Source: Saccharopolyspora phatthalungensis (lineage in GTDB: Bacteria > Actinomycetota > Actinomycetes > Mycobacteriales > Pseudonocardiaceae). Taken from it: a stretch of 64,000 nt of DNA. Position 1 is the stretch's first letter, and each line of letters starts with the position of its first letter. The stretch covers positions 868,001 through 932,000 of the forward strand of contig NZ_JACHIW010000002.1 of NCBI RefSeq assembly GCF_014203395.1, read 5' to 3'. The notes under the pieces are model-generated. The model had not been told where the DNA came from and did not search any database. It saw only the letters and a program-made list of their open reading frames with translations. A program made the position numbers and the translations under genes. Below, piece by piece: positions 5,655 through 64,000 of this stretch.

Positions 5655-5686
5655 CCTCTCGAACGCCGGACCGGAACGGAAGTGAC

Positions 5687-41198: not shown

Positions 41199-44100
41199 CT
41201 ACTCCGACCACACATCCGACTCCACCCACTCCGACGACTCACCCTGACTCACCCCACTACCAGGCCAGAACAAACGACGACGCCCACCACCCCCACCGCC
41301 CGACCCGCGCCCCGCATCCCCCACCGAAAGCCGCCTCGCCCCCCACCTCGACTCCCCCACCACACGATCCCGCACACCACCACCGCCAGACCCACCATCA
41401 CCCGCGCACGCCCACCGGTACAACCGCTCCAACAACACACGCCGCTCCCGCTCCATCCCCTCATTCGCGTCCGTACTCCCCTCCTCCCGCACGGGCTCCC
41501 GCACCGACAACTCATCACTCGGCCGCGGCAGAAAACCACCACCAGCCTCCCCACTCGCACTCAGACTCGCACCCGCCAACCCCCGCAACCGCTCCCGCAA
41601 CGCCTCCGCAGCCACCCGATCATCCGGAGCCCGCAACACCTGATACGCCATTACCAACCGCACCGAATCCACCGCCCCAGCACCCAACACCGCATCCGCA
41701 GCAGCAAGCAGCCCTGCCACGGCGTCAGCACCCTGCAAGCCCATCACCTCCCGCAACGCCGCATCAGCCGCCACCACCAACCCATTCAACTCCCACACCG
41801 CCGCATCGCGCCGCGCCCCCCGCACCACCCCCACCGCAGCCCCAGCAGCCCTCGCCTCATTCCGCAATACCCCAACATCCACACCACCCAACACCCCCCG
41901 CCGCGCAATGTCCGACCAGCACTCCACCCGCGCCCGCAACTCAGGCACATACGACGCCGAACCATCAACCAAAAGCCGACGCAACGAAGTCACCGACGCC
42001 AACAACTCAGCAACCAACCGCGACCGCTCACCCGCATCCCCATCCGCCAAGGACCCGCCCACCGACCCACACACCGAGGACGCTGGCTTGCCAAGAGCAC
42101 TCGTCCCTGGCTCCCGCACGTCCCACCCCTGGCCCAACGCCGGCGCAACGGTCATCGGATCAGACAGCTGCGCGGGCGACGGCTCACCCTCCGTCGGCAC
42201 GCCACCGGAACCCGACGCCTCGCCGACCGAATCATCCTCATTCCTGATCTCCTCAAGCCGCGACCGACCCCAATCCTTGCCCTTGCCGAACATCCTCCCC
42301 AGCGCCGCGCCGGTATACGGTTTGCCCGCGTCACGACTGCGACGCGCCTCCGCACGCGCCGCCTCCCGCACCGATTCCTGATCCTGCTCACGCAAAGCCG
42401 ACCGCGTCACGCCACCCTCATCCCTGATTTCCGCAAGCCGCCGCCGGCCCCACGCCTCTGACTTTCCGAATCTCGTCCCCAACTCCGGACCGTTGTAGGG
42501 ATTGCCCGCATCACGGGCACGACGTGCCTCCGCACGCGCCGCCTCCCGCTCCGACTCCTGATCCTGCTCACGCAAAGCCGACCGCGTCACGCCACCCTCA
42601 TCCCTGATTTCCGCAAGCCGCAACCGACCCCAGTCGTCGCTCTTTCCGAACGTCCTGCCCAGCGCCCCGCCGGTGTAGGGCTTGCCCGCGTCACGAGCCC
42701 GACGCGCCTCCGCACGCGCCGCCTCCCGCGCTTGCTCCGCTACATCGTGCCGACTGCTCACACCCGCATCGCCTCTGATTTCCTCAAGTCTGGCCTTACC
42801 CCACGACGCGCTCTTTCCGTATTTCCTTCCCAACGCCGCACCGGTATAGTGCACACCCGCATCACAAGCAAGACGCGCATCCGCCCGCGCCGCCTCGCGC
42901 TCCTGCTCCTCCAAAAGGGGTCGGCCCACACCACCCTCCGCGGCGATTTCGGTAAGCCGTAGCCGACCCCATTCCTTGTGCTTATCGAACTTCCTCCCCA
43001 ACTCCTCACTGGTATAGGGCTCACCCGCGTCACTAGCACGACGCGCCTCCGCCCGCGCCGCCTCCCGCACCTGCTCCGCACCGTCAAGATCGTCGGCCTC
43101 GGGCACCACCCCCGGCGCCGGACCAGGCCCCGCAGGCATCCGCGCGGCAGCTTCGTCAAGCGACCCCACAGCGCCCACAGGTACCGATGCATCAACCAAC
43201 CCATCGCTGCGCAGCCGGGTCACCAGCGCCCCGGCATCGCGCACGCGCTTCCGCAATTCCGCCACATCCACGCCATCAAGAGCTCTCCGACCTAACGTCC
43301 CCCACCAATGCTCAACGCGCTGCCGCAACCCAGGCAGATAACCCTGCGGCGCACCAACCAAAAGCCGCCGCAATGTGTCAACCAAGCTCCGCAATTCAGC
43401 AACCAACCGGGACCGCTCATCTCCATCCGTACTTGCCGCCAACGCGCCCGCCGACCAACCCGCGGCCGTCCCAGTGTCTTCGACGTGGGGACGTCCCGAA
43501 CCCTCAGACAACCCCGCGGCGAACGACTCAGCAGCCCTTTCGTTGGGCTTACCGCTGCCCGTGAAGTCCTGTCCAGAACGCGGCGTTTCGCCAGCTGATT
43601 CCGCGACCTCAGCTCCGATCTCCCGAAGCCGCGACAAACCCCAATCCTTGCCCTTTCCGAACTTCTTCGCCAGCCTCTCACCGCTGTATGGCGTGCCCGC
43701 GTCACGAGCACGACGCGCCTCCACGCGCCCGGCCTCCCGCAACTGCTTCTCCCGTAGCGAACGGGTCACGCCGGCCTCATTCTCGACTTCCGCTATCCGG
43801 GCCCGACCCCACGCGTCGCTCTTTCCGAACAGGTCCCCCAACGTCTTACCGCTGTGGGAAGTCCCCGCGTCACGAGCACTTCGCACCTCTACCCGCGCCG
43901 CCTCCCGTTTCTGCTCCTCCAATGCCGACCTGGACACACCACCCTCGTTGTCGACTTCCGCGAGCCGCATCCGCCCCCAGTCTTTCCCCTTCCCGAACTT
44001 GTCCGCCAACGCGGCGCCGGTCCAAGACTCGCCCGCGCCGCGAGCACGACGCACCTCAGCCCGCGCCGCCTCCCTTTTCTGCTCCTCCAATGCCGACCTG

Positions 44101-47100
44101 GACACGCCACCGTCGTTGTCGACTTCCGCGATCTGCAGCGCCGCCCAGCCTTTGCCCCTCCCGAACTTCTTTCCCAATGCCGTCGCGGTGTAGTGCTCCC
44201 CCGCATCACGGGCGCGACGTACCTCCCTACGCGCCACCTCCCGCAATTGGTCCTCCAGTGCCGGCTGGGAACCACCAACCTCTTGCTTGACTTCGGCGAT
44301 CCGCGAGGCACCCCATTTCATGCCTCGGTGGAACTTCTCCCCCAACTCCTTACCGGTGTAGGAATCGCCCGCCGCAAGGGCCCGGCGCACCTCCGCACGA
44401 GCGGCCTCTCGCTCCTGCTCGTCCAATGCCGGCTTGCCCACACCAGTCTCATTGCTGATTTCGACTAGCCGCCGGTGCCCCCACGTGTCGCTCTTTCCGT
44501 ACTTGTCCGCCAACGTCTTAGCGGTGCAGGGTTCCCCCGCGTCACGGGCACGACGCGCCTCCGCACGCGCCGCCTCCCGCTCCTGCTCCGCCTCGTCGAT
44601 TGCCAGCCGACCCGCACCAACCTCATTGCTGATTTCCGCGATCCGCAGCCGCCCCCAATCTTTGCCCTTGCCAAATTTCGCCCCCAACGTCTTACCCGTG
44701 TAGGGCTTGCCCGCGTCCCGGGCACGACGCGCCTCCGCACGCGCCGCCACCCGCTCCTCCTCCTCCAAATTGTGCCGAGGTACCACACCCTCTTCCCTGA
44801 TCTCCGCAAGCCGCGACCGAGCCCACACAAAGCTCTTCCCGAATTTCGTCGCCAATGCCATTTGGCTGTAGGGCTGACCGGCGGCATAGGCTCGACGCGC
44901 CTCCGCACGCGCCGCCACCCGCTCCCGCTCCTCCAGGTCCTGCCGAGTCACCCCACCCTCATCCTTGATTTCCAACAGCCGTTGCCGCCCCCATTCCTTG
45001 TTCTTCCCGAACCTTTCTCCCAACTCCCCGGCGGTGTAGGGCTTGCCCGCATCACGGGCAAGGCGTGCGTCCGCACGCGCCGCCTCCCGCATCTGCTCGT
45101 TCGACAACTCCGCCCGGTCAAGCGTTTCGGCATCGTGATCACGCCCGTAAGGCAACCGCGCCGCACCTTCGTCGACGGAGTCATCGGCAAGACGCCGCTT
45201 ACGGCCGCTGCTTTCACCGGTCAAATCCGTTCCGGTGCCGCCATGATCGGCTGCGTTCTCGCCAAAGGCCATCAGCGGCAACTCATCCGGGTCATGAAAC
45301 CCGCCGCCCGCTCCCAGATCCAGACCGGCATCAGGCACCCGCGCGCCTACCTGCTGCGGGCGCCCATGCGGCTCCGAAAGCTCGACCAACCCATCAGTGC
45401 GCAACCGCGCCACCAACGCCTTTGCATCACGCGCGCGTTTGCGCAACCGCTCCAGCTCCACAGCATCAAACCCGCCCCTGTTCAACGTCCCCGACCAGTG
45501 CTCAACCCGCTCCCGCAGCCCAGGCAGATAATCCTCCCGCGCACCGACCAAAAGCCGCCGCAACGAACCGACAGATCCGGCCAACTCGGCAAGCAGCCGC
45601 GACCGCTCAGCCATTTCCGCCTCTGACACGCCCCGCAAGGACCCCGCACCCGTCGCATGACTCCAGCCGGCGATGCTGGCAAACACATCACTGCCCGCAG
45701 AACTCTCGAACATCGTTGTGCCCGCGGGAAAATCCGGCCCCGCCCCGGCCCGGATGGCCAACCCCGACCCCTCGGAGCCCAACCTGACCGCCAGTTCACG
45801 GGAGAAGCGCACCGCCTCGTCATGGCCGTATCCACCGTCTCTCGCCGCGACCAGGGTCACCACATCGTCCAGCGAGACACCCACATCCCGACGCACCAGC
45901 TTCATGGCATCATGCGTGCCCTGCACGATCCGCACCGCCTGATCACGGGACCCGGCCACCGACTTGGCCCGCTCAATCTCCCGGCGAAGATCCGACTCCG
46001 TCCACTCCGCCAGAGCGACCGACTCGGGAACGTGCTGCGCTTCCTCGGTCGCAGCCACATCCGCCGAGGAAGCGCCTTCAATCGACGCACTACCCCCAAA
46101 ACCCGACGTCCCGACCGAATCACCATCCTCGTTGCTGATCTCACGAAGCCTCGCCACACCCCAGTCCTTGCCCCTCCCGAACTTGGCTCCCAGCGCCGCG
46201 CCGGAATAAGGCGCACCCGCGTCACGAGCCCGACGTGCCTCCGCCCGGCCCGCCTCACGCTGCCGTTCCGTCAACGCCGTCCGGCTCAGAACAACCTCAC
46301 CCCGGACCTCCGCAAGGCGCGCCCGGCCCCACCCCTTGCTCATTCCGTACTTCTTCCCCAACGTCTTACCGTTGTAGGGCTTGCCGGCGTCACGAGCACG
46401 ACGTGCCTCGGCCCGTGCCAACTCTCTCAACCGCTCCAGGTCGCGAGGCCCCTCGGCGTCACCCAACCCTTCCGACGCCTGGCCGGGCCCCGCCGGTCTC
46501 CGCGCCGCACCCTCATCGGTCACATCATCGGCACGCCTGCGCTTCCGACCATGACCGATCGAAACCGTTTCGCCAACACCGCCGTCAGTGTCCGCAACGG
46601 ACACCGACCGGCCTCCCGCATTCCACCCGGGTTCCGACGACGGCTCACCGGACACCGTATCGAACAACCACGCCCCCGCATCATCCCCAGAGTCAACAAC
46701 TCCGGACTCAGGCGATACCGACATCGCGTCATCACCGGACTCGGAATCCACCTGCGCACGACGCGCCTCCCGCAACCGCTCCTGGTCCACCTCCGCCGAC
46801 TGGATCGCCCGGGTCTCATTCTTGATTTCTGTCAGCACCCGCCAGCCCCAGTCCTTGCTCTTCCCGAACTTCGCCCCCAGCGCCGCGCCAGAGTAAGGAT
46901 TGCCCTCGTCACGAGCCCGACGCGCCTCCGCCCGCGCTGCCTCCCGCAGCCGCTCCCGCTCCCGCTCAGCCTCGGACAACCGGGACACGGCATCCTCATC
47001 CCGGATTCCCGCAGGCCGCGCCCGCCGCCGCACCGTGCCCTTTCCGGACTTCAACGTCTCACCGGTGTAGGGCTCCGGCCGCCCCGTGTCGCGGGCAAGA

Positions 47101-50100
47101 CGCGCCTGCGCAGGTACCACCTGATCCGCCGATTCCGCCCGGGTCGCATCGTCCTGCTCGTGGACTTCCTCAAGCCTCCGCCTACCCCACATAGAAGTCT
47201 TTCCGTACTTCTTCCCCAACGCCGCGGCGCTAAAGCGCAGGCCTTTAGCATGAGCACGGCGCAGGTCCGCCCGCGCCGACTCCCGCGCCTGCTCGTCCAA
47301 CACCGCCCGGCTCACACCGCCGTCGTCCTTGATCTCCCCGAGCCGACGCCAGCCCCACGCCGAGCTTCGTCCGAACTTCTTCCCCAACTCCTCACCGTTG
47401 TAGGGTTCACCCGCATCACCCGCACGACGCGCCTCCACCCGCCCCGCCTCCCGCAATTTCTCCTCCAGATCCCGCCGACTCACGCCGCCCTCATTGCCGA
47501 TTTCCGCAAGCCGCGCCCGACCCCAGTCCTTGCCCTTCCCGTACTTCTTCCCCAGCGCCGCCCCCGTGTAGGGCTTGCCCTCGTCACGAGCCCGGCGCGC
47601 CTCCTCCCGCGCCGCTTCCCGCACCTGCTCCGTATTGCCAAGACCGACGGACCCATCCACTGCCCCCGACGCCGGATCAGGCTCGCCCCGGCTCGGCACC
47701 CTGCCGGCATCAGACGCTTCCTCGGTACCGCTGCGCTCACCGCCACTGTTTTCACCGCGAGAATGCGTTCCTACAGCGGCACTATCATCAGTGTCCGCAA
47801 CAGACATCGACGGCCTTGTCTCATCCAGGCTCGAATACTCGCCACCGAACCCGCCAGCCGCACCCTGTGACCGCTCGGCCGCGAAGAAAGATCCCAGCTC
47901 GCTGCGCACCCGCTCGACCAACGTTTTCGCATCACTCGCCCGCTTCCGCAAACCGGCCAGCTCCGCGCCATCGAACCCGCCCCGATCCAACATCCCCGAC
48001 CACAGCCCAACCCGCTCGATCAACTCAGGCATATAGTCAAGCGGCGCATCCACCAACAGCCCGCGCAAAGCATCCACCGACACCCTCAACTCAGAGACCA
48101 GCCGTGCCCGCTCGCCCCCATCCGCGCTCACCGACGTCTCGCCCCGGTCAGCCGCGTCCCATCCAAGGTCCAATGTCGGCTCGGCGGTCACCGGATCGAA
48201 CAGCCACGAAGCCGAATCGGCAGCAGGCCCGACAGGGCTCGGGTCAAACGCCCACGACCGCGCGCCATCCGCCGAGTCGGCAAAACCCGGATCGAACCAC
48301 CACGAGTCCACGCCATCCCCAAACCCAGCGGTCACATCAACCACCTGACCACTGCCCGCTGATTCACCGAAACTCGGCGCATCCGCCTGCTGATCCGGTC
48401 CCACCCCAGCACTGGCGGTCAACGCCGAACCCGCAAAACCCAGTCTGGCCGCCAATTCTCGGGAAAACCGCACCGCCGCATCAGGTCCATTTTCGGCAAA
48501 CCTCGCCGCGACCAGAGCCACCACATCATCCAGAGACGCCTTCGCGTCCCCCAGAGCCAGCGCCACTACGTCCTGCGTGTCCTGCACAATCGGCATCGCC
48601 GCGTCGTACGGTTCAGCAACCGCCAGCGCCCGCGCAATCTCCGCACGGAGATCCGACTCGGTCCACTCCGCCACCGCAAGCGGCACAGAAGCGCCCTGCT
48701 CAACCGCCGCCACATCCGGTGACGAGACGCGCTCCCTTGCCACATCACCCCCCGAACCCGATGCTGGGACGGCTGAACCACCAACCTCATTCCGGATCTC
48801 GGCAAGCCGTTGCCGCCCCCAGTCCTTGCTCTTGCCAAATCTCTTCGCCAACGCCTCACTGGTGTAGGGCTTGCCCTCGTCACGGGCACGACGCGCCTCC
48901 GCACGCGCCGCCTCCCACTCCCGCTCGCGACCTTGCTCGATCAAATCCGACCGGCTCGTTCCGCCCGCATTCCTGACTTCCGTGATCCGCTCCCAACCCC
49001 ACGCCGAACCCTTTCCGAACCTCTTGCCCAGCTGCTCAGCGGTGTAGGGCTGCCCCGCATCACAAGCACGACGCGCCTCCACCCGCGCCGCCTCCCGCAA
49101 CTGCTCCAGTTCCCGCTGCGTCAATTCCGCCCTGGTCAAACCGCCCTCATCCCGGATTTCCGCAAGCCGCTCCGCGCCCCACTCCCGGCCCTTTCCGAAC
49201 TTCTTGCCCAGCTGCTCAGCGGTGTAGGGCTGCCCCGCATCACAAGCACGACGCGCCTCCACCCGCGCCGCCTCCCGCAACTGCTCCAGTTCCCGCTGCG
49301 TCAATTCCGCCCTGGTCAAACCGCCCTCATCCCGGATTTCCGCAAGCCGGGCTTTGCCCCACGACGCGCTCTTTCCGAACTTCGTCCCCAACGTGTCACC
49401 GGTATGGGGCTCACCCGCGTCACGAGCACGACGTGCCTCCGCACGCGCTGCCTCTCGCACCCTCTTCCCCCGCTGTCCGCCCAAACGGCGCCGGGGCGTA
49501 TCCGCCTCGCTAGGCCCTCGCTCCGCCCCCTCGGCACGGCCTCGGCTACTGCTACTGCTCGCACCGACCGATTCCGTCGCACCAAAACCGCTATCAGTGT
49601 CGGCAAGAGACACCGACGGCCACACCACTGCCGGATTCACATACTCGTGCTCCGCCGCGAACCCGAAATCGGCTCTCTGGAAGAACTCGGGCCCGAGACG
49701 GTCCTCCGACGTCCCTGCCCCGCCAGCGGCGCCCCACACCGGCTCGTCCATGTCCCATCCAGGCCCCAATGCCTGCTCGGCCACCACCTGATCAAACGCC
49801 CACGCCCCCAGACCGAAGCCGGACTCGACAAAGCCCGGATTGACGGCCCACGACGTCACCTCATCCGCCGACCCGACAGGTCCCGGATCGAACGACCACG
49901 AGCCCGCATCGTGCCAAGACTCAGTAGTGACACCACCAAACTCACTACTGCCGACAGAATCCTCCAACACCGAGGCGTCCGCTCGCGGATCCGGCCCCGC
50001 GCCAGCCTGGATGGCCAGACCCGTGCGCCGCGTGCCCAGCTTCGCCGCCAACTCCCGGGAAAACCGCACCGCCTCGGCACGGCCGTGCTCACGGACACTC

Positions 50101-52676
50101 GCCGCAACCAGAGCGACCACATCATCCAACGACACATCCGACTGCCCACGGGCCAGCGTCACCACATCATGCGTGCCCTGCACGATCCGCTTTGCCATGG
50201 CACCCGGCCCACCCAGAGCCCTGGCGCGCTCGACTTCCCGACGCAGAACCGACTCCGTCCACTCCCTCACACCGGCCGAATCCGCTTGTTCCACGGCGGG
50301 CCCCTGCAAACCCGCCTCGGACCCCGCCGTCTCGTCTGCGCGCCGCGACTCGGGTGAGGGCGAACCCCCCGTCTCCGCTGTGTCCGCCGGAACTGCCAAC
50401 GATGACTCCGGCTCATTACCGCTGCCCGGTCGAGACGAATACCCGTTCCCGACAGCAGAATCCGTACCGGGCTCCACTGCTGCGGGCACACCGGGACGTG
50501 TCGCACCGCCCCCGGCAGACACCTGTCCCGCCCTGCCATCGACCTCCGGAACCACCGTGGCCGCCGAAGAATTCGTCGCCGAGAGCGCGACTTCCGAGGA
50601 CATGTCGAGCACATCGGTGGCATCTGTCACCGGCTTTCCCATTGGCGAATCCGCCACCGGGACCGTGGGCTCCAGCACCCGCGCACCGCCGGCATGGACG
50701 CTCAGCTCGTTCGCACCGAACATGGTCGTAGTGGGATGCTCAACACGATGCAGCGAATCGGCATTTCCGGTATGGAAAGCATCCGCCACCCCGCCATCGG
50801 ACACGAGCGAGCCACCGGGGCTGGAAGAACCCGACCCCGGCGCCGGCACCTGCGTCGAGCCCGCCGCCGAATCGGCCGGATCGTCTACAGCAGACGATGA
50901 AACAGCGGAGTAGCCGTTGTCGGAGGCCGGTCCGTAGGCCGGCGGCGCATCGACACTCGAATCCCGCACCGTGAACCCGCTGGGAACCAGTGAATCGTTA
51001 CTAGCGAGGCCATTACCGTGAGCAGGGCTGTAGGGTGGCGGCGGTGTGCCCGGCCTGTGCTGGCCTCGCAGCGCATCCGGGGCCGTTGCATCGCCCTCAT
51101 GCCACGACACCGGCCCGGTATCGCTCGGCTTCCCAGGCTCACCGATCTCGGCGTGACCTCCCACCGAGACACCGGTATCCACATCCCGCAACCCACCCGC
51201 CGACGGGGTAACCGTGAGCTTCGGCACCGATGTCTTTTGAGCCGCGCGACCCGGCGATTTCGTACCTGCGGCCCGGGACAAGTCGGCCGAATTCTCCTTG
51301 CCAGTCTGGAAAGCCGACGTGGCCGTAATATTCGCCCCCACCAGACCCGGTACTGGGTCGGTGACCACCGTTGCGAAACCGGCGGCCGTCACCCCAGAGT
51401 TCTCCCCAGACCCAGAGCCCGCCCAAGACCCAGAGTCAGCCCCAGACCCAGAGTCAGCGCCGGGCAGGCCGTTCCGCGACAGGTGCTTGTCGCTGACGGT
51501 CTCCGCGAAGCCGGGCTTCTCGCCCGCCTGCGACCCGAAGTCCACCTTCAAATCCGCTGAAGTGCCGGTGTCGGTGTCCGTACCGCTGGAATCCTTCTCC
51601 CCGCCGGCGGCGTCCCGCGCCCCGCCCGCCGGAATCAACTGCCCCCGCAACGCCAACCCCGCCAGATTCCCGATACCCGAACCCACCGCCTCCGACAACC
51701 CCGCCGTGAACGAGAACGGATTCCACTGCGCCCCCTGACCACTCAACGCCCCATACCCCGCCTCGCCGAACATCTCGGTCAACCCCTCTTCCAACGACTC
51801 CCCCAGCCCGTGACCAAACCGGGCCGCCCACATCGCCCGCACCGACATCCCCGTGAAATCCTCAATATTCTTCGACACCACATCAGCAAAGCGCGCCATC
51901 GACGACAACGAATACTGCTCCGCGTGCTCCTCCACAGCATGCTTGGCAGCCGCGGCCAACACCTCAGCATCGATCTTGTCGCCCAAACCCCGCACCAACA
52001 CTTTGGTAATCGCATTACCCACCACATTGCCCAACGCCGAGAGCGGCACCGCCAGCAACGCGCTGAACGACCCCACCCCCACCGCCATCGTCGTCAGCTG
52101 GCCATCCCACTTCTTCCGCGTCCCCAACGCGAATTGCGCACCCTGCGCGCCGACCTCCACCAACAGCTGCAACCCGATCCCCACCACCTGGGCCACCGCC
52201 AGCCGCACGAACAACTGCCCCCACCACCGCGTCAGCAGAAACCGCATCACCGCGAAACGTGCCGCCAACCACGCCATACTCGCCCCACCCGTCAGCCCCG
52301 CCATCGCCACCGCCCACGCCACCTCCCCCAACAGCAACACCAACCCGCCCACCGTCGCGAACTTCAAATACTGCACCTGCAACGCCAGATTCCGCACAAA
52401 CCCCGCCAACTCCCGCAACCCCACACCACCCGCCTCCAACACCGGAGAAAACGCCTCCAACCGGTCCGCGAACCGGTCCGCCGCCTTGCCCGAGAACCCG
52501 CCCCGTACCCGACCCACCACCTCCCGCACCACCGGACCCAGCTCCTCCACCGTCGCCGCGCCCGACTCCAACGCCCCCGCCACCGCGAACAAAGCATCCT
52601 CATCCGCATCCGTCATGTCCTCACCGGTCAGCACCTGAAAAAGCCGTCTCACCTCCTCCGGCACCAGCAAGGACAT
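41199..52676 (-). CDS. Giant ESX/CpnT-like protein with ~25 helix-turn-helix-like tandem repeats
   Basis: About 3,825 residues. ATG 52676 has GAGGTGA upstream; an in-frame TTG lies at 52682. Residues 1-390 are an ESX/CpnT-like N-terminus: helical start (LFQVLTGEDM, FSGKAADRF), several hydrophobic segments, and GHGLGESLEEGLTEMFGEAG. A long Ser/Gly/Pro linker follows. After it come three copies of a ~90-residue unit (WTESDLRREI ... VQGTHDVV ... SLDDVVALVAA ... FSRELA), four or five copies of a helical unit (RLVAELxxSVxxLRRLLV ... PELRxRVExWS) and five blocks of a ~56-residue HTH-like repeat. The repeat consensus is REAARAEARRARDAGKPY then TGxxLGKKFGKGKDWGRxRLAEI. The C-terminus is Gly/Ser-rich and ends abruptly at TAG. 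The family is not recognised beyond the N-terminus, which in other actinobacteria belongs to T7SS-linked polymorphic toxins. The repeats suggest nucleic-acid or self-association binding. Confidence 0.85.
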   Translation of the reverse strand: MSLLVPEEVRRLFQVLTGEDMTDADEDALFAVAGALESGAATVEELGPVVREVVGRVRGGFSGKAADRFADRLEAFSPVLEAGGVGLRELAGFVRNLALQVQYLKFATVGGLVLLLGEVAWAVAMAGLTGGASMAWLAARFAVMRFLLTRWWGQLFVRLAVAQVVGIGLQLLVEVGAQGAQFALGTRKKWDGQLTTMAVGVGSFSALLAVPLSALGNVVGNAITKVLVRGLGDKIDAEVLAAAAKHAVEEHAEQYSLSSMARFADVVSKNIEDFTGMSVRAMWAARFGHGLGESLEEGLTEMFGEAGYGALSGQGAQWNPFSFTAGLSEAVGSGIGNLAGLALRGQLIPAGGARDAAGGEKDSSGTDTDTGTSADLKVDFGSQAGEKPGFAETVSDKHLSRNGLPGADSGSGADSGSWAGSGSGENSGVTAAGFATVVTDPVPGLVGANITATSAFQTGKENSADLSRAAGTKSPGRAAQKTSVPKLTVTPSAGGLRDVDTGVSVGGHAEIGEPGKPSDTGPVSWHEGDATAPDALRGQHRPGTPPPPYSPAHGNGLASNDSLVPSGFTVRDSSVDAPPAYGPASDNGYSAVSSSAVDDPADSAAGSTQVPAPGSGSSSPGGSLVSDGGVADAFHTGNADSLHRVEHPTTTMFGANELSVHAGGARVLEPTVPVADSPMGKPVTDATDVLDMSSEVALSATNSSAATVVPEVDGRAGQVSAGGGATRPGVPAAVEPGTDSAVGNGYSSRPGSGNEPESSLAVPADTAETGGSPSPESRRADETAGSEAGLQGPAVEQADSAGVREWTESVLRREVERARALGGPGAMAKRIVQGTHDVVTLARGQSDVSLDDVVALVAASVREHGRAEAVRFSRELAAKLGTRRTGLAIQAGAGPDPRADASVLEDSVGSSEFGGVTTESWHDAGSWSFDPGPVGSADEVTSWAVNPGFVESGFGLGAWAFDQVVAEQALGPGWDMDEPVWGAAGGAGTSEDRLGPEFFQRADFGFAAEHEYVNPAVVWPSVSLADTDSGFGATESVGASSSSSRGRAEGAERGPSEADTPRRRLGGQRGKRVREAARAEARRARDAGEPHTGDTLGTKFGKSASWGKARLAEIRDEGGLTRAELTQRELEQLREAARVEARRACDAGQPYTAEQLGKKFGKGREWGAERLAEIRDEGGLTRAELTQRELEQLREAARVEARRACDAGQPYTAEQLGKRFGKGSAWGWERITEVRNAGGTSRSDLIEQGREREWEAARAEARRARDEGKPYTSEALAKRFGKSKDWGRQRLAEIRNEVGGSAVPASGSGGDVARERVSSPDVAAVEQGASVPLAVAEWTESDLRAEIARALAVAEPYDAAMPIVQDTQDVVALALGDAKASLDDVVALVAARFAENGPDAAVRFSRELAARLGFAGSALTASAGVGPDQQADAPSFGESAGSGQVVDVTAGFGDGVDSWWFDPGFADSADGARSWAFDPSPVGPAADSASWLFDPVTAEPTLDLGWDAADRGETSVSADGGERARLVSELRVSVDALRGLLVDAPLDYMPELIERVGLWSGMLDRGGFDGAELAGLRKRASDAKTLVERVRSELGSFFAAERSQGAAGGFGGEYSSLDETRPSMSVADTDDSAAVGTHSRGENSGGERSGTEEASDAGRVPSRGEPDPASGAVDGSVGLGNTEQVREAAREEARRARDEGKPYTGAALGKKYGKGKDWGRARLAEIGNEGGVSRRDLEEKLREAGRVEARRAGDAGEPYNGEELGKKFGRSSAWGWRRLGEIKDDGGVSRAVLDEQARESARADLRRAHAKGLRFSAAALGKKYGKTSMWGRRRLEEVHEQDDATRAESADQVVPAQARLARDTGRPEPYTGETLKSGKGTVRRRARPAGIRDEDAVSRLSEAERERERLREAARAEARRARDEGNPYSGAALGAKFGKSKDWGWRVLTEIKNETRAIQSAEVDQERLREARRAQVDSESGDDAMSVSPESGVVDSGDDAGAWLFDTVSGEPSSEPGWNAGGRSVSVADTDGGVGETVSIGHGRKRRRADDVTDEGAARRPAGPGQASEGLGDAEGPRDLERLRELARAEARRARDAGKPYNGKTLGKKYGMSKGWGRARLAEVRGEVVLSRTALTERQREAGRAEARRARDAGAPYSGAALGAKFGRGKDWGVARLREISNEDGDSVGTSGFGGSASIEGASSADVAATEEAQHVPESVALAEWTESDLRREIERAKSVAGSRDQAVRIVQGTHDAMKLVRRDVGVSLDDVVTLVAARDGGYGHDEAVRFSRELAVRLGSEGSGLAIRAGAGPDFPAGTTMFESSAGSDVFASIAGWSHATGAGSLRGVSEAEMAERSRLLAELAGSVGSLRRLLVGAREDYLPGLRERVEHWSGTLNRGGFDAVELERLRKRARDAKALVARLRTDGLVELSEPHGRPQQVGARVPDAGLDLGAGGGFHDPDELPLMAFGENAADHGGTGTDLTGESSGRKRRLADDSVDEGAARLPYGRDHDAETLDRAELSNEQMREAARADARLARDAGKPYTAGELGERFGKNKEWGRQRLLEIKDEGGVTRQDLEERERVAARAEARRAYAAGQPYSQMALATKFGKSFVWARSRLAEIREEGVVPRHNLEEEERVAARAEARRARDAGKPYTGKTLGAKFGKGKDWGRLRIAEISNEVGAGRLAIDEAEQEREAARAEARRARDAGEPCTAKTLADKYGKSDTWGHRRLVEISNETGVGKPALDEQEREAARAEVRRALAAGDSYTGKELGEKFHRGMKWGASRIAEVKQEVGGSQPALEDQLREVARREVRRARDAGEHYTATALGKKFGRGKGWAALQIAEVDNDGGVSRSALEEQKREAARAEVRRARGAGESWTGAALADKFGKGKDWGRMRLAEVDNEGGVSRSALEEQKREAARVEVRSARDAGTSHSGKTLGDLFGKSDAWGRARIAEVENEAGVTRSLREKQLREAGRVEARRARDAGTPYSGERLAKKFGKGKDWGLSRLREIGAEVAESAGETPRSGQDFTGSGKPNERAAESFAAGLSEGSGRPHVEDTGTAAGWSAGALAASTDGDERSRLVAELRSLVDTLRRLLVGAPQGYLPGLRQRVEHWWGTLGRRALDGVDVAELRKRVRDAGALVTRLRSDGLVDASVPVGAVGSLDEAAARMPAGPGPAPGVVPEADDLDGAEQVREAARAEARRASDAGEPYTSEELGRKFDKHKEWGRLRLTEIAAEGGVGRPLLEEQEREAARADARLACDAGVHYTGAALGRKYGKSASWGKARLEEIRGDAGVSSRHDVAEQAREAARAEARRARDAGKPYTGGALGRTFGKSDDWGRLRLAEIRDEGGVTRSALREQDQESEREAARAEARRARDAGNPYNGPELGTRFGKSEAWGRRRLAEIRDEGGVTRSALREQDQESVREAARAEARRSRDAGKPYTGAALGRMFGKGKDWGRSRLEEIRNEDDSVGEASGSGGVPTEGEPSPAQLSDPMTVAPALGQGWDVREPGTSALGKPASSVCGSVGGSLADGDAGERSRLVAELLASVTSLRRLLVDGSASYVPELRARVECWSDIARRGVLGGVDVGVLRNEARAAGAAVGVVRGARRDAAVWELNGLVVAADAALREVMGLQGADAVAGLLAAADAVLGAGAVDSVRLVMAYQVLRAPDDRVAAEALRERLRGLAGASLSASGEAGGGFLPRPSDELSVREPVREEGSTDANEGMERERRVLLERLYRWACAGDGGSGGGGVRDRVVGESRWGARRLSVGDAGRGSGGGGGGRRRLFWPGSGVSQGESSEWVESDVWSE
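42226..43078 (-). repeat. HTH-repeat block E (5 units)
   Basis: The last block of the giant; five ~56-residue units. The variable pairs before the invariant Trp are KE, AS, DD, EA, KD in protein order. Units 3 and 4 share identical linkers (GGVTRSALREQDQES), so they duplicated recently. Confidence 0.85.
43600..45105 (-). repeat. HTH-repeat block D (9 units)
   Basis: The longest uninterrupted block: nine units in direct tandem. The pairs before Trp are KE, FV, KD, DT, MK, KG, KD, DA, KD. One unit has HRGMKW in place of GKxxxW, and two (13th and 17th overall) have Ala instead of Gly after the Trp. Confidence 0.85.
46123..46440 (-). repeat. HTH-repeat block C (2 units)
   Basis: Two units with pairs KG and KD before the Trp, lying between a Ser/Asp-rich linker and a WTESDLRREI unit. 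Confidence 0.8.
46790..47634 (-). repeat. HTH-repeat block B (5 units, one degenerate)
   Basis: Pairs KD, SA, SM, none, KD. The fourth unit has lost the Trp and the FGK turn (ETLKSGKGTVRRRARPAG) and looks decayed. A truncated sixth start (LREARRAQVDSE) follows the last unit. Confidence 0.8.
48775..49470 (-). repeat. HTH-repeat block A (4 units)
   Basis: The first block of the array. Pairs AS, RE, SA, KD. Units 1-3 share the linker GGLTRAELTQRELEQL or a close relative, and units 2 and 3 are nearly identical over their first half at DNA level (about 49040-49130 and 49220-49310). Confidence 0.85.
51510..52285 (-). repeat. DNA patch nearly identical to 62788-63560
   Basis: About 770 bp encoding the middle of the ESX/CpnT-like N-terminus (ASMAWLAARF to the GEKP linker) is almost base-for-base the same as in the second giant. 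The flanking N-terminal codons are visibly more divergent. This points to recent gene conversion or selection for an identical module. Confidence 0.85.
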
Positions 52677-52803
52677 TCGCAATCACCTCATCAGCTCACA
52701 CTCGAAATAGTTCATGCCGCGCCTCCGGCGCAGTCGCTTGGGGACGCACCGGGCAACCGTCGACTGCCTCATGGTCGCCCGCCGCCACGACCGCACCCGC
52801 ATG

Positions 52804-53679
52804 TCATGCTCTTGGCTTAGTGACCTCGCCGGCGCGTGGCCAAGCGGCACGACGCTGGTGCGCCAGGAACCGGATGACCCGCAGCTCGAACGGAGTCGGG
52901 TCGATCAACGGCTTACCACGCCACTCCGTCGGATCGACAAGCCGAACCCCGCCATCGTCGCGCACCACCGCCAACAGGTGGGCAACGCTTTGCCTTACCC
53001 GGCAATCCTTCCTACCTATCCAGATCAGGGCAACCGAGCCTACGGGAAAGGTCTCGACCTTCCGCAACACCCCAGCCCAATGCCGGTGCGCCCGGACACC
53101 GGCGACCGTGGCCGGAACACCGTCGAGGAAAACAACATCGCCGTCGGCGTAGTCGGCGTACGACAGGTGGCCGGTCAGCTCACGCCCACCGAGCTGACGA
53201 CGCAACCACACCATCACACGGGTACCCTCTCCGCCCTCCACAATGAACTCCGCCACCTCGCCGCATGCCGAGCCGCTCACCACTTCGGCACCGGGAAAAT
53301 GATCCGCCGACATCCGGTCCCACCAACCCGGCACCTCGGTTACCGGATCCCGCGGCAAAGCCGAAGGCGGCCAACCGTTCACTGCGGCATCTGTCGCGAC
53401 AAGGCATTTACGCGCGCTGACCCGCCAAACCCACAGACGCCACTCAGACCGCGACAGGTTGAGCTCCTCATCAACCGGACCGGCGTCCCGAAAGCTATCT
53501 CCGCCATCCCTGGGTGCACAGATCGTCGCGACCGGCATCGGCTCAAGGGACCCGGCATAACGGCGCCCGAACAGCACCGCCCGCTCAGTCGTGAGGGCCG
53601 GTGCCTCATCGCTGAGCACCACACGAGACCCACGGGTTTCGTGCAGCCAAACACGCGCGCGCTCGGCAAGATCCCTCAT
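52804..53679 (-). CDS. YrhB-like / papain-fold-toxin-like protein between the giant genes
   Basis: 291 residues from ATG 53679 (GGGGAG upstream); the same frame runs further upstream without recognisable protein. The N-terminal part (ERARVWLHETRGSRVVLSDE ... VLFGRRY) resembles the YrhB-like fold common in actinobacterial toxin-immunity loci. The C-terminal part (DVVFLDGVPATVAG, VRQSVAHLLAVV, GGVRLVDPTEW) has a His and a late Asp in the order seen in papain-fold/glutamine-deamidase toxin domains. A catalytic Cys is not certain, though DCRVRQ is a candidate. It lies between two same-strand giants and could be an effector, an immunity protein or a cassette module. Assignments are from memory of the families, with low certainty. 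Confidence 0.5.
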   Translation of the reverse strand: MRDLAERARVWLHETRGSRVVLSDEAPALTTERAVLFGRRYAGSLEPMPVATICAPRDGGDSFRDAGPVDEELNLSRSEWRLWVWRVSARKCLVATDAAVNGWPPSALPRDPVTEVPGWWDRMSADHFPGAEVVSGSACGEVAEFIVEGGEGTRVMVWLRRQLGGRELTGHLSYADYADGDVVFLDGVPATVAGVRAHRHWAGVLRKVETFPVGSVALIWIGRKDCRVRQSVAHLLAVVRDDGGVRLVDPTEWRGKPLIDPTPFELRVIRFLAHQRRAAWPRAGEVTKPRA

Positions 53680-54004
53680 GGCTCCCCGTCGCCCGTGCCC
53701 ACAACTAGTCCACCGAGTATGCGTTTCCCGACACTGACACTCAAAGCCGGTTTCCCCAACGCCGCCACGATCTTGCCCGCATGTACCCAACCGCACCGTG
53801 ATCAGTCCGCCGAAGACCCAACCGACGATCCCGTTCACCACGGGTTTCGGGCATCGCGCGGAGCACCCATGCCCGCGAACACCCGAACATCAGGAAAATC
53901 CGCCGGATCCCGGACGACGGCGGCTACCGTTCGCATGTCCGCAACACCGAGCATGATGGCCCGCGAGGCCGGCGTCGGCGTCCGGGCAGTACCATGCCCT
54001 CGCG
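53680..54004. other. Spacer between giant gene and YrhB-like gene
   Basis: 325 bp after the second giant's stop. No ribosome site or recognisable gene is seen. The - strand frame of the YrhB-like gene stays open to 53841 but shows no conserved features, and may be the relic of a fused upstream region. Confidence 0.4.
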
Positions 54005-57000
54005 TCAGGCGCCTACAGCCGGTCCGGTGCCGAGGCCGCGCAGTCCCGGTTGACCTGGGCCGACCGGCAATCCACCACCGGCAAGGCCCCAATCAGCCAA
54101 CGGGTATACGGTAAACGGCGATTGCAGGCTCGGCGGGACCGGGATCCGTTTGTCCTTCGCCCCTGCCGTGCCCGTGGCCGTGATCTCACGCGCTGCCGCC
54201 AGGTCGGCTCGCCGGGCCCGCACGTCGATCCAGATCTCGACCCGGGTGGGTCCCTCGGCGGGCAGGAACTGCGGCGTCGCGACGAGTCCGACATCGCTGG
54301 GCCCGAACCGGTTGTCCTCCGGGATGTTCCACTGCGCGATGCGGAGCTTGTCCTTCAGTTCATTCGCGACGTAGGAGAAGTCTTTCTTGGCTTGCGATTC
54401 GTTGTCGTCGCGTGCGTTGAGATCGCCGTGCACGACGTAACGCACGCGAGGCTGGTAGCCCTGTCGTCTCGCCTCTAGGACCTTGTCCATTACCGGGTAC
54501 AAGGCGTGGCGGGCGCGCACCCTCGACGGAGCGTCCTCGCCGACTGTCACGCGCGCGTCAGCGGGGGCACCTGCGAGAGTGGGTTCGGTGCGGGCGATGG
54601 CGAGCTCTAGTTCATAGGTCCGCTTGGCCTGCCACCACGCCCGCTGCGCGGCCTGCTCCCGCGCCATCGCCTCACTCCAGCGTTGTTTCGCTACCAGTTT
54701 CCGCGCCGTCGCCTCGCGCCGCTCCTGTTCGGCGACCGCGACCTTCGCCTGCAATTCGGCTGCCGTTGCCTGCGACAGGGTGACGCGAGCGGCGCGCTCC
54801 TGATCGATGGCATCGGTCCACTTCGCTCCCCGTTCGGCGAATTCCTTCGTGGCGGACACCAGCGCGGCGGGCAGCTCGATGCCGCGGTCACCGCGGCGGA
54901 TCACGTAGCCTGCCTCGAACCCGGCATCGACGACTGCGGTCTGCTTGCCGACGCTGTACTTACCCGGGCTGGCGACGATGCGGAACTCCGCGCCGTGCAT
55001 CCAGGTGCTCGTAATGCCCTTAAGCGGAGAATCCGCGGTCTTGTCCGGAAGCTTCTTGCCGGCGCTTTCGCTCCAGAGCGACTGCCCGCCCTCGTACTCG
55101 CGCGTACCCAGGGCAAACAGCGGAAGGTTCCACCCACCAGCCGACGCGAACGCCTTATCGCTCTTCTCGTGGTCATCGGATGCCTTCGGATGCGACACGC
55201 CGCCGGCGATCAGGGGCACCATCGAAAGAACATGCCGACCACCCGTACTGACCTCGTCATATTCGGTCTCCGGAGTCGCCATCGACCCGCCCATGCTGAT
55301 GCGCCCGCTGGTCGAGGTGAGTGTGCCCCGGTCGGGGATCCGGAGGTGCACGGCCACGTCGACGCCGAGTTGGGGTGGCAGGTCGACCAGCAAAGCCTGC
55401 GCGTGCGGGTCGGCCAGCCTGCCCAGCAGCGCCTCCAACCGGTGCGGGGAGAACCACGCTCGCAGCGCCCGGCGCACATCCGCGTTCACCCCGCCCCCGG
55501 CGGCGGTGATGGCCCGTTCGGCCGCAGCGACCAGGTCCTCAACCTTGCCGGTGAACTCCACCGCCCGGAACTGCCCGGGAGCGGGCAACTTCTCGGCGTT
55601 GCCGCCGGAGCGCCAGCGCCGCACCGCCTCATCCGCAGCCTCCGACACCGGGCGGTCGGCGAGCGTGGCGGTGCGGGGCCGCGCAGCGACCTCGGCGGGC
55701 ACTGTGTCCTCCACCGCGGTGCGCACCCCGACGGTGCGCACGTCCGGGGCCTCCGCTATCCGCTGCCCATGCCGCTCGAGACGCACGTCGAACAACACCT
55801 CGGCACGATGCGACGCCAACGCTCCCGACACCCGCTCCGAGTTCGTGTAGTTCTCGGCGGCAGTACGCGTCCGGGTGCGGACTTGCTTCAACCATGCGGC
55901 GCCGTATGCGATTCCCAGGCCCGCCTTGACATAGAGGGGTCCGTGGAACGGGCCTGGTTCGCCGCTGTCCGAAACGGGCCCCGAGGGTCCGGATCCGTCG
56001 ATGTGAACCGCGGGGATCAGCGCGCCGAACGTTTCGAGGAGCACCCGGCGGGCCCGTCGGGTGCTGCTTGACAGGATGGACGCCGCACTTCCTGTGACCA
56101 GTTCGCCGTGCGTGATCCCCTCGGCGACCGGCTCCGAGCGCAGCTTGGCGCCCACGTGGAGCTCGTAGGTGCGTCCGCTGAACCTGTCCTCCAACCGCAA
56201 CGGCGTGCTGGCCCCGCCGTTGGCCGCATCGCCCATCTTGGCCTGCACATTGGACAGGAAGCGCTCCACCTCGCGGTAATTGTCGTGCGCGGTATCCCGT
56301 GCGGAACTCGGCAGCAACCGATCGGCCTGCTCCGCGCCGAGACTGCGGGACACTTTCTCGTGCAACAGCGGAATTCGGTCGGTCAAGTCGACCGCCTCGG
56401 TGACCCCACCACTCCACGACGGCGCGGCCAGCGCGTGCCCGGCCGGCACCGGCACCACATCCGCCGACGGGCTGGGAGGTTTCACCGGGCTCGCCCATCC
56501 TCCGGCGGCGTTGCGGGCGCGCTGCGCGTCCACCTCGGCTTGCTTGGTCCTGATCTCCTGCAACTGCTCGTCGGTGACCAGGACCGTGCCTGCCCGTGGC
56601 AGCGTGAATCGCTCCGCCGACCGGACCGCCGGTTTCGGTGCGAGCAGTCCCACTCGGTCGATCTTGCCCACCGTGCGGACCTCGGTGGCGACGGTGGCCT
56701 CGACGTTCACCTCGACCAGATGCAGTTCACGCGGCTTGCCCGTCACCGAACGCGTGTGGCTGCTGCTGACCACCTGCCCGCGCTTGCGTGACGAACTGCC
56801 CGCCCACAGCGTGGTGTCGGCGAAGCCCAGCGCGGTGAGACTGCTGGTGTTCGGGCCGTGCTGGGCGGAAAAGTCGCTGATCGGGATCATCGCGGGTTCG
56901 ATGGAGTTGCCGAAGGTGACGGTGCTGGTCGTCCCGCTGTAGGTGCTGCGCCCGCCGGTCACCGAGTGCGTCGGCTGCTGCCACACCTTGACCGGTTTGC

Positions 57001-60000
57001 CCTCGGCGTCCAGCACCGGCGTGGGGTCGCGCAGCAGGAGCGAATATTCGACCGCACCGTGCTGGTCCCGGCGGCGCCGAGGCGAGAACAGCCCGTCGAG
57101 CCGGAACTTCTTGCTGAGGCTGCGCGGATTCCCTCGCACCGTGGCCAACGACATCCCGGAATCAACCAGGCGCCCGTTGTCCCCGAGCTGCCAGCTTGAG
57201 TGCCCGGAGAGTTCCCTGAGCTGCTTGAACGCCGATTCACGGAGGTGTTTCATGCCGTGCAAGGACACGATCGGCATACCGTCGAAGACCCGCGAGAACC
57301 CGCGCCGCGTCGTCTCGTCGTCGTGGGGGACCTGGGATCGCCCGACGGGTTCGACGGCGGCCTTCTTTATTTCGATCAACTCGGTTTTCAGTTTTTCCGC
57401 CTGCCATGCGGGCAGATCGACGACGATGTCGACATCGACGACGCCCGGCTCACGGCCCTCGGCGGCAGCCGTGCGGTCCACGATCCGCAGGTCCCGCACC
57501 GGTGGCGTGTGCATGCCCGGCCTACCGATGGTCACGCCCTTCGCGAGCGTGTTCCACTCCTGCCAATGCGTTCCCGACGCCTTGTACCTGACCCGGTAAG
57601 CTAAGCGCTTGCGCGGTTCGGGTCCCACCCTGCCCGTGGCCGTCGGTTCGTTCCCGCGAGCGCCGCCGAAGGACAGTTCGGTGTTCTCCCCGGTGGCCGA
57701 GGACTTTCCCCGCGCGAAATTGACCTTGTGGTAGCTGGTGAGGACCGCCGTTTCCCCGGCCAGCACCGAGTAGATGCGCGCCACGAAGCCGGCCTCGGCC
57801 GACCAGGTCACACCGGTGCTGTGCTGCACGGTTTCGGAATCGGTCAGGGTCGCCGTCGCGGCCGCCTCGTCGATCGGGCCCAGATCCTTGACATCACGCA
57901 CCTCCGCCGCCAGCGCCAGCGAAGCGTGGTAGTCGTGCCCTCGGCCGTGTTCGACCAACTCGACCACGGTGGCCTGATCGGCAAGCATCTCCTCGGCAAC
58001 CCGCGGTGACGACAACCGGTCACTGGAAGTAGCGGTGTCGATCTGCTCGCCGCGCGCCAACTGCCGGGCCTTCTTGGCCTTGATTCCCCCGGCCAGCTTC
58101 GGATCGTCGAAATCGGCGACGAATGCGGTGTCCCGCCATGCCCACCGGTGATGCCCCGGGATCGTGCGCGCCGAATCGCGCAGGATCTGGGCGAGTTTGG
58201 CTCCCGCCCCGCTGGCCGCCAACGCCGCGCCGGTAATGCCCGCCACACGGTGCGGATGCGGCTGGTTGTCGTCGTTGATCAGACCGGCTTCGCGGGCGAA
58301 CTGCGATACTGTCCAGTGGATGGCATCCACCGCCTCGGGGAATGTGATCGGCGGGCGGCCGGGCGTGCGGACCTGCAAGTCGTAAACAGTGCGGTAGCGC
58401 ACCACCGTGACGTTGCTCGCCGCGGCATCGCTGCGTCCCGACGCATGGGCGAACTGCTGGTCGTGGCTGCGTCCCACGCTGCCCCCGACGTAAGGAGCCG
58501 CCGAGGCGATCACCGGTCCAACCGCGACACCGGGCCCCCCGGCCACCGATCCACTTACCTCGCGACCCGCACCGTGCTGACTCGTCGCCGTCGCGCCCCC
58601 CTTGCTGGAGGACACCAACGAGGCATTGTCGATCTTCTCCAGGTAAGCGACTTCCCGTGCTACGGCACGCATCTGCACGAAACGCACGCGAGTGGACAAC
58701 ATCCGTTTCAACGGATTGCCAGAAGGCAGCAATGGCTCCGACGACACCCACCCACGCCCAGCAGCCGCTTCCTGCTGGCTCACCGCCATCCGCGGCAAAA
58801 GATGTTCAATGCCGGACTGGCTGAGGAAGTGTCGCAGGACATCGCGCGCCAGGCCGCCAAGCGCGCCGAATTGCGCGGCCACCTGGTCATAGATGGCCGG
58901 TACTTGACCCGGCGCCGTCTTGATCCGCACGGGCTTGCCCTGGTACTGGCCATGGATCAAGTGCCGGACGTCGGTTCCTTCCAGCACCGAAGGTGGCAGC
59001 TCAGCCGGCACCGGCACGGCACGACCGCGATCGACCGACCGCAACCCGGTGGGCACGCTCAACTCGACGCCGACCGGGCCGGCGCCGGGATGACCTTCTC
59101 CACCAACGATCGTGGCACCAGTGCTGCTACGTCCCTCGTCATCCAGCCGGGAAATGTGGAACCGCACCGGCACGCGCACCGCGCGTGTCCCGGCGTACTC
59201 GGTGTCGCCGCCGGAAACATGCTTGTCCGGCAAGGCGATGGTCATCGACTCCTTGTTGGTATCGACACGATCGGTGGCTCTGTTCACCGCCGTCCCGGTC
59301 GGCAGGTTGACCGCACCGAAAGCCATCATCCCCGGGACCGCTGGGATGAAGAAAATCTGCCGGTAGTTCGGTTTTCCGGCGGACTTGGTGCCGGCTCCCG
59401 TGGCGCTTTCGGTCATCGTGGTGGCCGACTGCTCGGCGCCGGGCCCGTCCGCGGCGACCCGGTGCGTCCAGTCGAACTCGGCGCGTACCCAGAGCTTCGC
59501 ATCACCGACCCGGAACTCGCGGCCATAGCCGAGCAAGGTTCCGACTTCGTTGCTCACGGCTTGTTTCAACGCGTCAAGGCCGTCCTTGTCGCTGTCGTCG
59601 GGCAACAGTCTTCCCGCTGCCGCGACGACCTGGTCGGTCCCCACGGTCCTGCTGAGCTGCCGCGCCGGGCCCAACGATGCGCTGCGACGGAGATACCCGG
59701 GCAACCGCAACCGGGGTCTGCCTGGGTCGTCGCCGTCTGGCTTGGTCCGAGCACCGGCGGTTTCGCCGGGCGCATCTTTGCCGATGGTGGGATTTTCGCT
59801 GGTCCTCCCCGACGGCTCGGCCGACTTTGTCTTTGTCATCGGGCCGGTCTCGGCTACGGGCGTGGCGGACTCCGAAGTCGTTTGCTTCGACAGGAGACCA
59901 CCAACCCCAGAGGGCCCGCTCTTTTTCGGCCATAAGATGGGCCAAGACCGACGGCGTTGTGCACCCCTCGCGTCAACAGAGCCGGGGCTTGGGCCTTGCG

Positions 60001-63952: not shown

Positions 63953-64000
63953 GCAAACCACCCACTCAGACCACAGAGCCAGCGGCCGAGGAATCAACGG

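Follow-up and report, generated by a model that had tools for sequence, protein, structure and literature searches.

Tandem predicted helix-turn-helix units with a diversified putative reading face in a giant WXG100_2-headed protein of Saccharopolyspora phatthalungensis

Results

The giant open reading frame and its repeats

We analysed a stretch of 64,000 nucleotides of the genome of the soil bacterium Saccharopolyspora phatthalungensis (assembly GCF_014203395.1, contig NZ_JACHIW010000002.1, positions 868,001 to 932,000), here called the window, in which a giant open reading frame (ORF), P0001, encodes five blocks of a repeated helix-turn-helix (HTH) unit. P0001 runs on the minus strand at 41199..52682 and encodes 3827 amino acids (aa) without an internal stop. 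Its likely start is the ATG at 52676, with GAGGTG ahead of it, and its GC content by codon position is 0.71/0.57/0.74. Residues 25-145 (52248..52610, minus strand) match WXG100_2 (PF25547) with an E value of 2.5e-9 and 37.7 bits against a cut-off of 27, and this domain opens an N-domain of about 350 aa, the head, which was found at 40 places in the genome.

The unit is 56-60 residues long and is present in 24 clear copies and one degenerate copy. The clear copies were found with a pattern anchored on a Trp, which falls at residues 1108 to 3471 of P0001, and positions are counted from this Trp throughout. All on the minus strand, block 1 lies at 48783..49463 (four units), block 2 at 46812..47627 (four clear units and the degenerate one, 46980..47114, which has no Trp), block 3 at 46125..46433 (two units), block 4 at 43605..45095 (nine units) and block 5 at 42234..43073 (five units). 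The residue pairs at positions -2 and -1 are AS, RE, SA and KD in block 1; KD, SA, SM and, after the degenerate unit, KD in block 2; KG and KD in block 3; KE, FV, KD, DT, MK, KG, KD, DA and KD in block 4; and KE, AS, DD, EA and KD in block 5. A sequence-only reading of the window had described about 25 repeats in five blocks of 4, 5, 2, 9 and 5, with a variable pair before an invariant Trp, and this description was borne out: the units lie where it placed them with the pairs that it listed, the unit to which it gave no pair is the degenerate copy, and the Trp is kept in 24 of 24 clear units, as are R-28, R-24, G-18, L-10 and E+7. The array is not a chance pattern. When the unit profile was run against the own genome, the weakest of the best 150 of 951 candidates that were scored had an E value of 1.7e-21. 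A rule that the last unit of each block carries KD, which holds for five of five blocks in P0001, was rejected, as only 7 of 140 block-last units follow it genome-wide.

Two further repeats are placed between and after the HTH blocks, again on the minus strand. Module B (79 aa) occurs at 50034..50270, 48438..48674 and 45777..46013, and module C (72 aa) at 47898..48113, 45393..45608, 43203..43418 and 41814..42029. In a Pfam scan P0001 gave no curated HTH family above cut-off, no match to DUF2637 and no match C-terminal to block 5, and no toxin tail was recognised there. The Pfam family DUF5053 matched one unit region of P0001 (46980-49463) below the cut-off and a paralogue, P0005, above it; judged from these matches, DUF5053 may be related to the HTH unit.

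Variation and selection in the HTH units

Among the 24 window units, entropy over 45 core columns ranked position -1 second and position -2 seventh, and columns -17, +3, -12, +9 and -8 were about as variable as the pair. In this check, which had been set beforehand as one that could refute the earlier claim, the variability was spread over several positions, which speaks against its concentration in the pair only. This genome has 39 giants in which the head is complete, and a profile built from the 24 units matched 33 of them with a total of 621 units. Of these units 457 had at most six gaps (456 distinct) and 399 an ungapped core of 43 residues. In the 456 distinct units the entropy was highest at -1 (3.55 bits), +2 (3.52) and -2 (3.41), followed by -12 (3.17) and by +10 and +3 (3.06 each). 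The idea that the pair alone is special thus failed on the units of the window and returned genome-wide in another form, as four or more sites.

The 399-unit set, in which the more divergent giants lose most of their units, was the basis of the work on the ratio of nonsynonymous to synonymous substitution rates (dN/dS), and the data on selection are pooled over 29 giant genes. The pair at -2 and -1 had been fixed beforehand by the sequence-only reading, whereas +2 and +3 were picked after the entropies had been seen. Identical pairs of units were kept in the spanning-forest and the bootstrapped estimates and left out of the disjoint-pair counts, the spectrum of changes and the codon model. In a spanning forest of close units the uncorrected ratio of nonsynonymous to synonymous differences per site (pN/pS) was 2.00 at +2, 1.83 at -1, 1.73 at +3 and 1.66 at -2, as compared to 0.61 globally. 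Bootstrapped dN/dS of grouped sites was 2.1-3.1 at these four positions, with all lower bounds at 1.84 or above, 1.4-2.1 at +6, +9 and +10, 0.9-1.4 at -12, -11 and -8, and about 0.3 at the rest. When each unit was used only once, in disjoint pairs, the amino-acid changes at -2 and -1 numbered 21 (of 120), 65 (of 483) and 118 (of 1022) at three thresholds, and among 42 adjacent site pairs this pair ranked first every time; the single sites +10 and -8 come close to it in these counts.

Estimates from a codon model that allows each codon position its own base composition were lower than the grouped dN/dS but still above 1 at -2, -1, +2 and +3. In 70 disjoint close pairs omega was 1.86 at -2 and -1 (likelihood-ratio test, p 3e-5), 1.92 at +2 and +3, 1.61 at +6, +9 and +10, 0.97 at -12, -11 and -8, and 0.27-0.28 for helix 1 and the remaining sites. 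In 119 pairs the corresponding values were 1.47 (p 2e-4), 1.51, 1.21, 1.20 and 0.26. Of the compared pairs, 61 of 70 and 84 of 119 join units of the same protein. The fast change that had been noticed at the pair before the Trp is therefore real, whereas its confinement to that one spot is not, as +2 and +3 change equally fast, +6, +9 and +10 also fast, and -12, -11 and -8 less so. Selection has thus changed the HTH units fastest on the side that would face DNA. As controls from the same proteins, modules B and C and the head had overall ratios of 0.49, 0.56 and 0.23, with high sites scattered. Positions -2, -1, +2 and +3 form 354 distinct quadruplets in the 399 units, whereas 2000 random draws of four other sites never gave more than 270, and the best other four picked by hand gave 315. 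The residues at these four positions are polar or charged in 59-71% of cases, and large hydrophobics make up 27% at +2.

Predicted structure of the unit

A single unit was predicted as a three-helix HTH (helices at 2-15, 22-28 and 33-47) with a mean predicted local distance difference test score of 91.1, and the model has the helix 2, turn, helix 3 core of the HTH fold. The pair at -2 and -1 corresponds to residues 33-34, the first two residues of helix 3, as the sequence-only reading had anticipated when it placed the variable pair at the opening of the recognition helix. Because of this location the pair is probably exposed. Structural neighbours of the model were mostly HTH domains with weak scores (template modelling score up to 0.73, for NiaR), and those solved with DNA include LexA, AraR, DeoR and region 4 of sigma A on -35 DNA. 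A model of three units had a predicted template modelling score (pTM) of 0.38 and no regular superhelix, and weakly resembled helical-repeat proteins such as RecX.

We aligned a wider unit profile (A5, 34 units) with four sequences of sigma-factor region 4 from the same genome using hhalign, with an E value of 1.3e-4 and a probability of 54%. The alignment puts -2 and -1 on two residues which we take to be R584 and E585 of sigma-70, and its gapless extension puts +2 and +3 on what would be R588 and Q589. Two studies report that the sigma-70 residues at the aligned sites take part in recognition of the -35 element (PMC2613000, PMC8407463). Paralogue P0005 passes the whole-protein cut-off of Sigma70_r4 (26.4 against 24.1 bits) as a sum of weak stretches, and the arrays of relatives match many HTH families in the same manner. 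PDB sequence searches with a unit query (A2) and with one array piece from genome G018 gave chance-level matches only, while A5 matched an entry named CAP repeat (E 2.8e-4), another protein (0.057) and the BirA HTH (0.075-0.24). NCBIfam held nothing useful for the family.

A family of giants in one genome

The genome assembly is 8.54 Mb in size. Among the 40 places found with the 350-aa head, 33 copies, the window protein included, are 81-100% identical, six are 64-65% identical and one is partial with a stop. All 40 head regions were taken for the unit count, some of them cut by contig ends, and as several giant genes are cut off in this way the real count may exceed the one given. Among the 39 complete-head giants, six have no HTH units, and the counts run up to 62. 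The open frames of the family total 163,310 aa, about 490 kb or about 5.7% of the genome. Modules B and C are repeated between HTH blocks genome-wide, in 79 and 50 copies. The spacing of the units, mostly 52-64 residues, is 56 in 91 steps, 60 in 69 and 58 in 24, with others from 48 up. Of the 29 closest links between units, 28 join copies within the same protein.

To look for frameshifted tails, the 3.3 kb that follow 34 giants and the broken copy C1_4320268 were compared with all giants, and a 46-aa array-like piece in another frame was found after C1_4944791 and a 515-aa match after C5_10144. Five other matches were the next giant in line, giant pieces lay around the broken copy, and downstream of 27 giants there was no match. 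In the broken giant, at C1:4320268, the part matched by the head contains a TGA, and pieces resembling giants follow further downstream.

Relatives in other genomes

The profile of the window units matched 20 of 100 genomes and the head 32 of 100, the window's own genome being in both sets. A5 matched 33 of 200 genomes of the family when at most the best 35 candidates per genome were scored. Seven of them had more than 10 scored matches (the window genome, G000, and G014, G033, G047, G171, G177 and G208), and the other 26 had one or two units each. A length-limited protein search with block 4 gave 11 proteins among 2072 candidates scored, all apparently on this genome's own contigs, and a profile search of genome contigs with A2, from which the own genome was possibly left out, gave no close relatives elsewhere. 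Many of the single units belong to proteins that are a few hundred residues long. We scanned four of these proteins: two pass the DUF2637 cut-off, one falls below it and one has no family. The statement in the sequence-only reading that like units occur singly in SpdB/DUF2637-type proteins is therefore right for part of the single-unit proteins. No match to two DUF2637-type proteins was found in plasmid records. SpdB2 of pSVH1, an Spd membrane protein that may or may not carry the HTH unit, is reported to bind DNA non-specifically (PMC4170104).

Within the genus, genome G005 has head matches, at the positions of contig NZ_GL877879.1 of S. spinosa NRRL 18395, and G006 has at least 20. Of the 20 scored in G006, 16 lie no more than about 320 kb from one end of the 9.44-Mb contig C1. 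Three of the G006 giants (one read in part) gave two, seven and no isolated unit matches at a loose threshold, and no array was found in them. In G033, an 11795-aa giant (C1:6150000-6185700) contains a row of seven units, of which six hardly differ in their DNA sequence, which looks like a recent amplification. Of the 13 core residue differences from the commonest copy, six are at -1 and +2 to +4 and three at +9, so that this separate lineage is partly like the window genome in its pattern of variation.

Type VII and toxin context

On the minus strand P0001 is preceded by a second giant of 3330 aa (54005..63997), a 163-base gap, a 345-aa ORF (52804..53841) and a 121-base gap. The 345-aa protein matches papain-fold toxin 1 / glutamine deamidase (PF15644; E 5.3e-17, 63.4 bits against 24.1), and its N-terminal part recurs once, just upstream of giant C4:162658 (41% over 116 aa). 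The second giant has the same N-domain, one module B and one module C, and the unit profile found no HTH unit in it. ESX/type VII machinery is present in the genome. A locus on contig C1 at about 10-22 kb encodes EccB, EccD, an FtsK-type ATPase and an S8 protease, followed by an AAA-LuxR regulator, with a WXG100-like protein that scores below the cut-off; without the regulator these genes span about 10-19 kb. Some 5 kb separate this locus from the head of giant C1:5149, and a second EccB was found at C1:2529042. Ten paralogue tails were scanned, and a Scabin-like ADP-ribosyltransferase (C2:1962936, minus strand) and an alpha/beta hydrolase (C2:1353857, minus strand) were found, with no recognised domain in the other eight. 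A conserved trafficking-type head in many variants per genome (40 places, one partial) is a trait of polymorphic toxins. Because of the head, the papain-fold neighbour, the Scabin-like tail and the ESX locus we place the family with the type VII-linked polymorphic toxins, and the N-domain, together with the paralogue that lies about 5 kb from an ESX locus, suggests that the window protein may be exported or displayed on the surface.

Discussion

On balance we lean towards reading P0001 as a string of DNA-binding HTH domains with selected, diversified specificity, carried on a type VII-linked, polymorphic-toxin-like giant. In view of the uniform framework, the closest copies within one protein and the selection on one helix face, we propose that helix 3 of each unit would dock on DNA as region 4 of sigma does, with residues -2, -1, +2 and +3 picking bases. 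The passenger region would be a flexible string of 25 small HTH domains on one of about 40 WXG100_2 giants, and such a string could make many weak contacts in a row with a composite, tunable affinity. Duplication and exchange would copy units, mostly within one protein, and keep the framework uniform, while selection would diversify the base-reading side, much as in the zinc-finger arrays of PRDM9. The array might hold the DNA of a neighbour, a mobile element or a matrix beside a partner that acts as a toxin or in processing, for which the adjoining papain-fold protein is a candidate, and possible targets are the DNA of competitors, plasmids, phages or extracellular matrix. More tentatively, and with some doubt, the giants may form their own bacterial class of evolvable DNA-reading arrays. 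Hundreds of HTH units, the majority of them with a four-residue reading face of their own under diversifying selection, would be lined up on type VII-linked giants, and in an arms race every giant would come to read its own composite signature in the DNA of competitors, plasmids or phages.

Several observations weigh against DNA binding of this kind and are given here with the explanations that they would favour. One concerns the generality of the variation pattern: in the older arrays of G047 and G018, +2, +6 and -2 are among the leading positions, but -1 and +3 are not. Others belong to the main rival, in which the HTH strings do not bind DNA and are diversified surfaces for protein recognition, be it kin or immunity recognition, receptor binding, or antigenic or phage-escape variation. 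The selected face takes in +6, +9 and +10 and, to a lesser extent, -12 and -8, large hydrophobics are frequent at +2, and there is the weak likeness to RecX and the polymorphic-toxin-like setting, in which arms races are usual (PMC3482391). We nevertheless regard protein recognition as unlikely, since the strongest change is at the four positions aligned with base-reading residues of sigma, these sites are mainly polar or charged, and the HTH unit is common to DUF2637 proteins.

A purely passive role of the array, as a spacer or stalk with exposed faces that simply tolerate change, seems to us improbable. Relaxed sites predict an omega of about 1, as compared to the 1.5-1.9 measured, and the lead of the pair over other adjacent pairs at every threshold would be left unexplained, even if the giants without units and the numbers up to 62, the varying linkers, and the three G006 giants with isolated units or none fit a stalk. 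Finally, we regard it as very improbable that a mutational device, such as a diversity-generating retroelement or cassette conversion, made the pattern in place of selection, though no search for a reverse transcriptase was made: two or three bases changed in 49 of 138 changed reading-face codons as compared to 90 of 587 others, but all four bases change there with no adenine bias, whereas retroelement targets show adenine-specific variation, and conversion would bring silent changes too, whereas the local silent rate is near the global one (0.237 and 0.209 at the widest threshold).

The DNA-reading string that we favour can be compared with known systems. Eukaryotic counterparts are the arrays of PRDM9 and, like them, the KRAB-type zinc-finger arrays. 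The zinc fingers of PRDM9 are reported to have a uniform framework with positive selection at the base-contact residues (PMC3890296). The likeness lies in tandem reader-type domains, a uniform framework and positive selection at contact-type positions, here assigned through the sigma alignment; unlike PRDM9, the array of the window is built of HTH units, is bacterial, sits on a WXG100_2 giant and is a putative, not an established, DNA binder. TAL effectors, the repeat-built DNA readers of plant pathogens, have units of 33-35 residues that vary only at one residue pair. They also are long arrays in large bacterial proteins with variability near one pair, whereas the present unit has three helices and 56-60 residues, variable linkers and at least four variable positions, and its model forms no regular superhelix. 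In the earlier parallel with modular binding of the TAL effector or pentatricopeptide-repeat type, a regular superhelix is not supported, given the unit spacing and the pTM of the three-unit model. A rigid code of one pair, as in TAL effectors, is unlikely and is not supported, because four or more positions vary and the linkers differ in length.

Region 4 of sigma-70 resembles the unit in the profile match and in the base-reading residues with which the variable positions align, and differs in that the unit has an invariant Trp and tandem copies and no sigma context. DUF2637/SpdB-type membrane proteins carry one homologous unit with an x-x-W-G signature on a membrane domain, whereas P0001 has 25 units and no DUF2637 match. 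With the WXG-headed polymorphic toxins of actinobacteria the giants share a conserved WXG-like head, a variable body, a toxin-like tail on one of ten paralogue tails and an adjoining papain-fold gene; they differ from them in that P0001 has no recognised toxin tail and in that HTH arrays are not mentioned in the excerpts available of PMC3482391. HTH domains, WXG-headed proteins and polymorphic toxins are already known, and in the excerpts available from the openly licensed PMC literature no description of tandem HTH arrays in giant WXG-headed proteins was found.

If the arrays bind DNA, bacteria would have in them a counterpart of the diversified arrays with which animals and plant pathogens read DNA, and with sequence-specific binding the system would merit its own category. 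The roughly 350 different natural reading faces among 399 units of one genome would make residue-to-base rules for HTH domains learnable, and the role of giant WXG100-headed proteins becomes directly testable. Even with a protein as ligand, sharply placed selection over 29 giant genes, in a family taking up about 5.7% of the genome, makes this a large unexplored system.

Other genes in the window

Two modular type I polyketide synthase ORFs occupy 201-16948 on the plus strand. The first has ketosynthase (KS), acyltransferase (AT), dehydratase (DH), ketoreductase (KR) and carrier domains, and the second, the first part of which was scanned, has a docking domain at its start.

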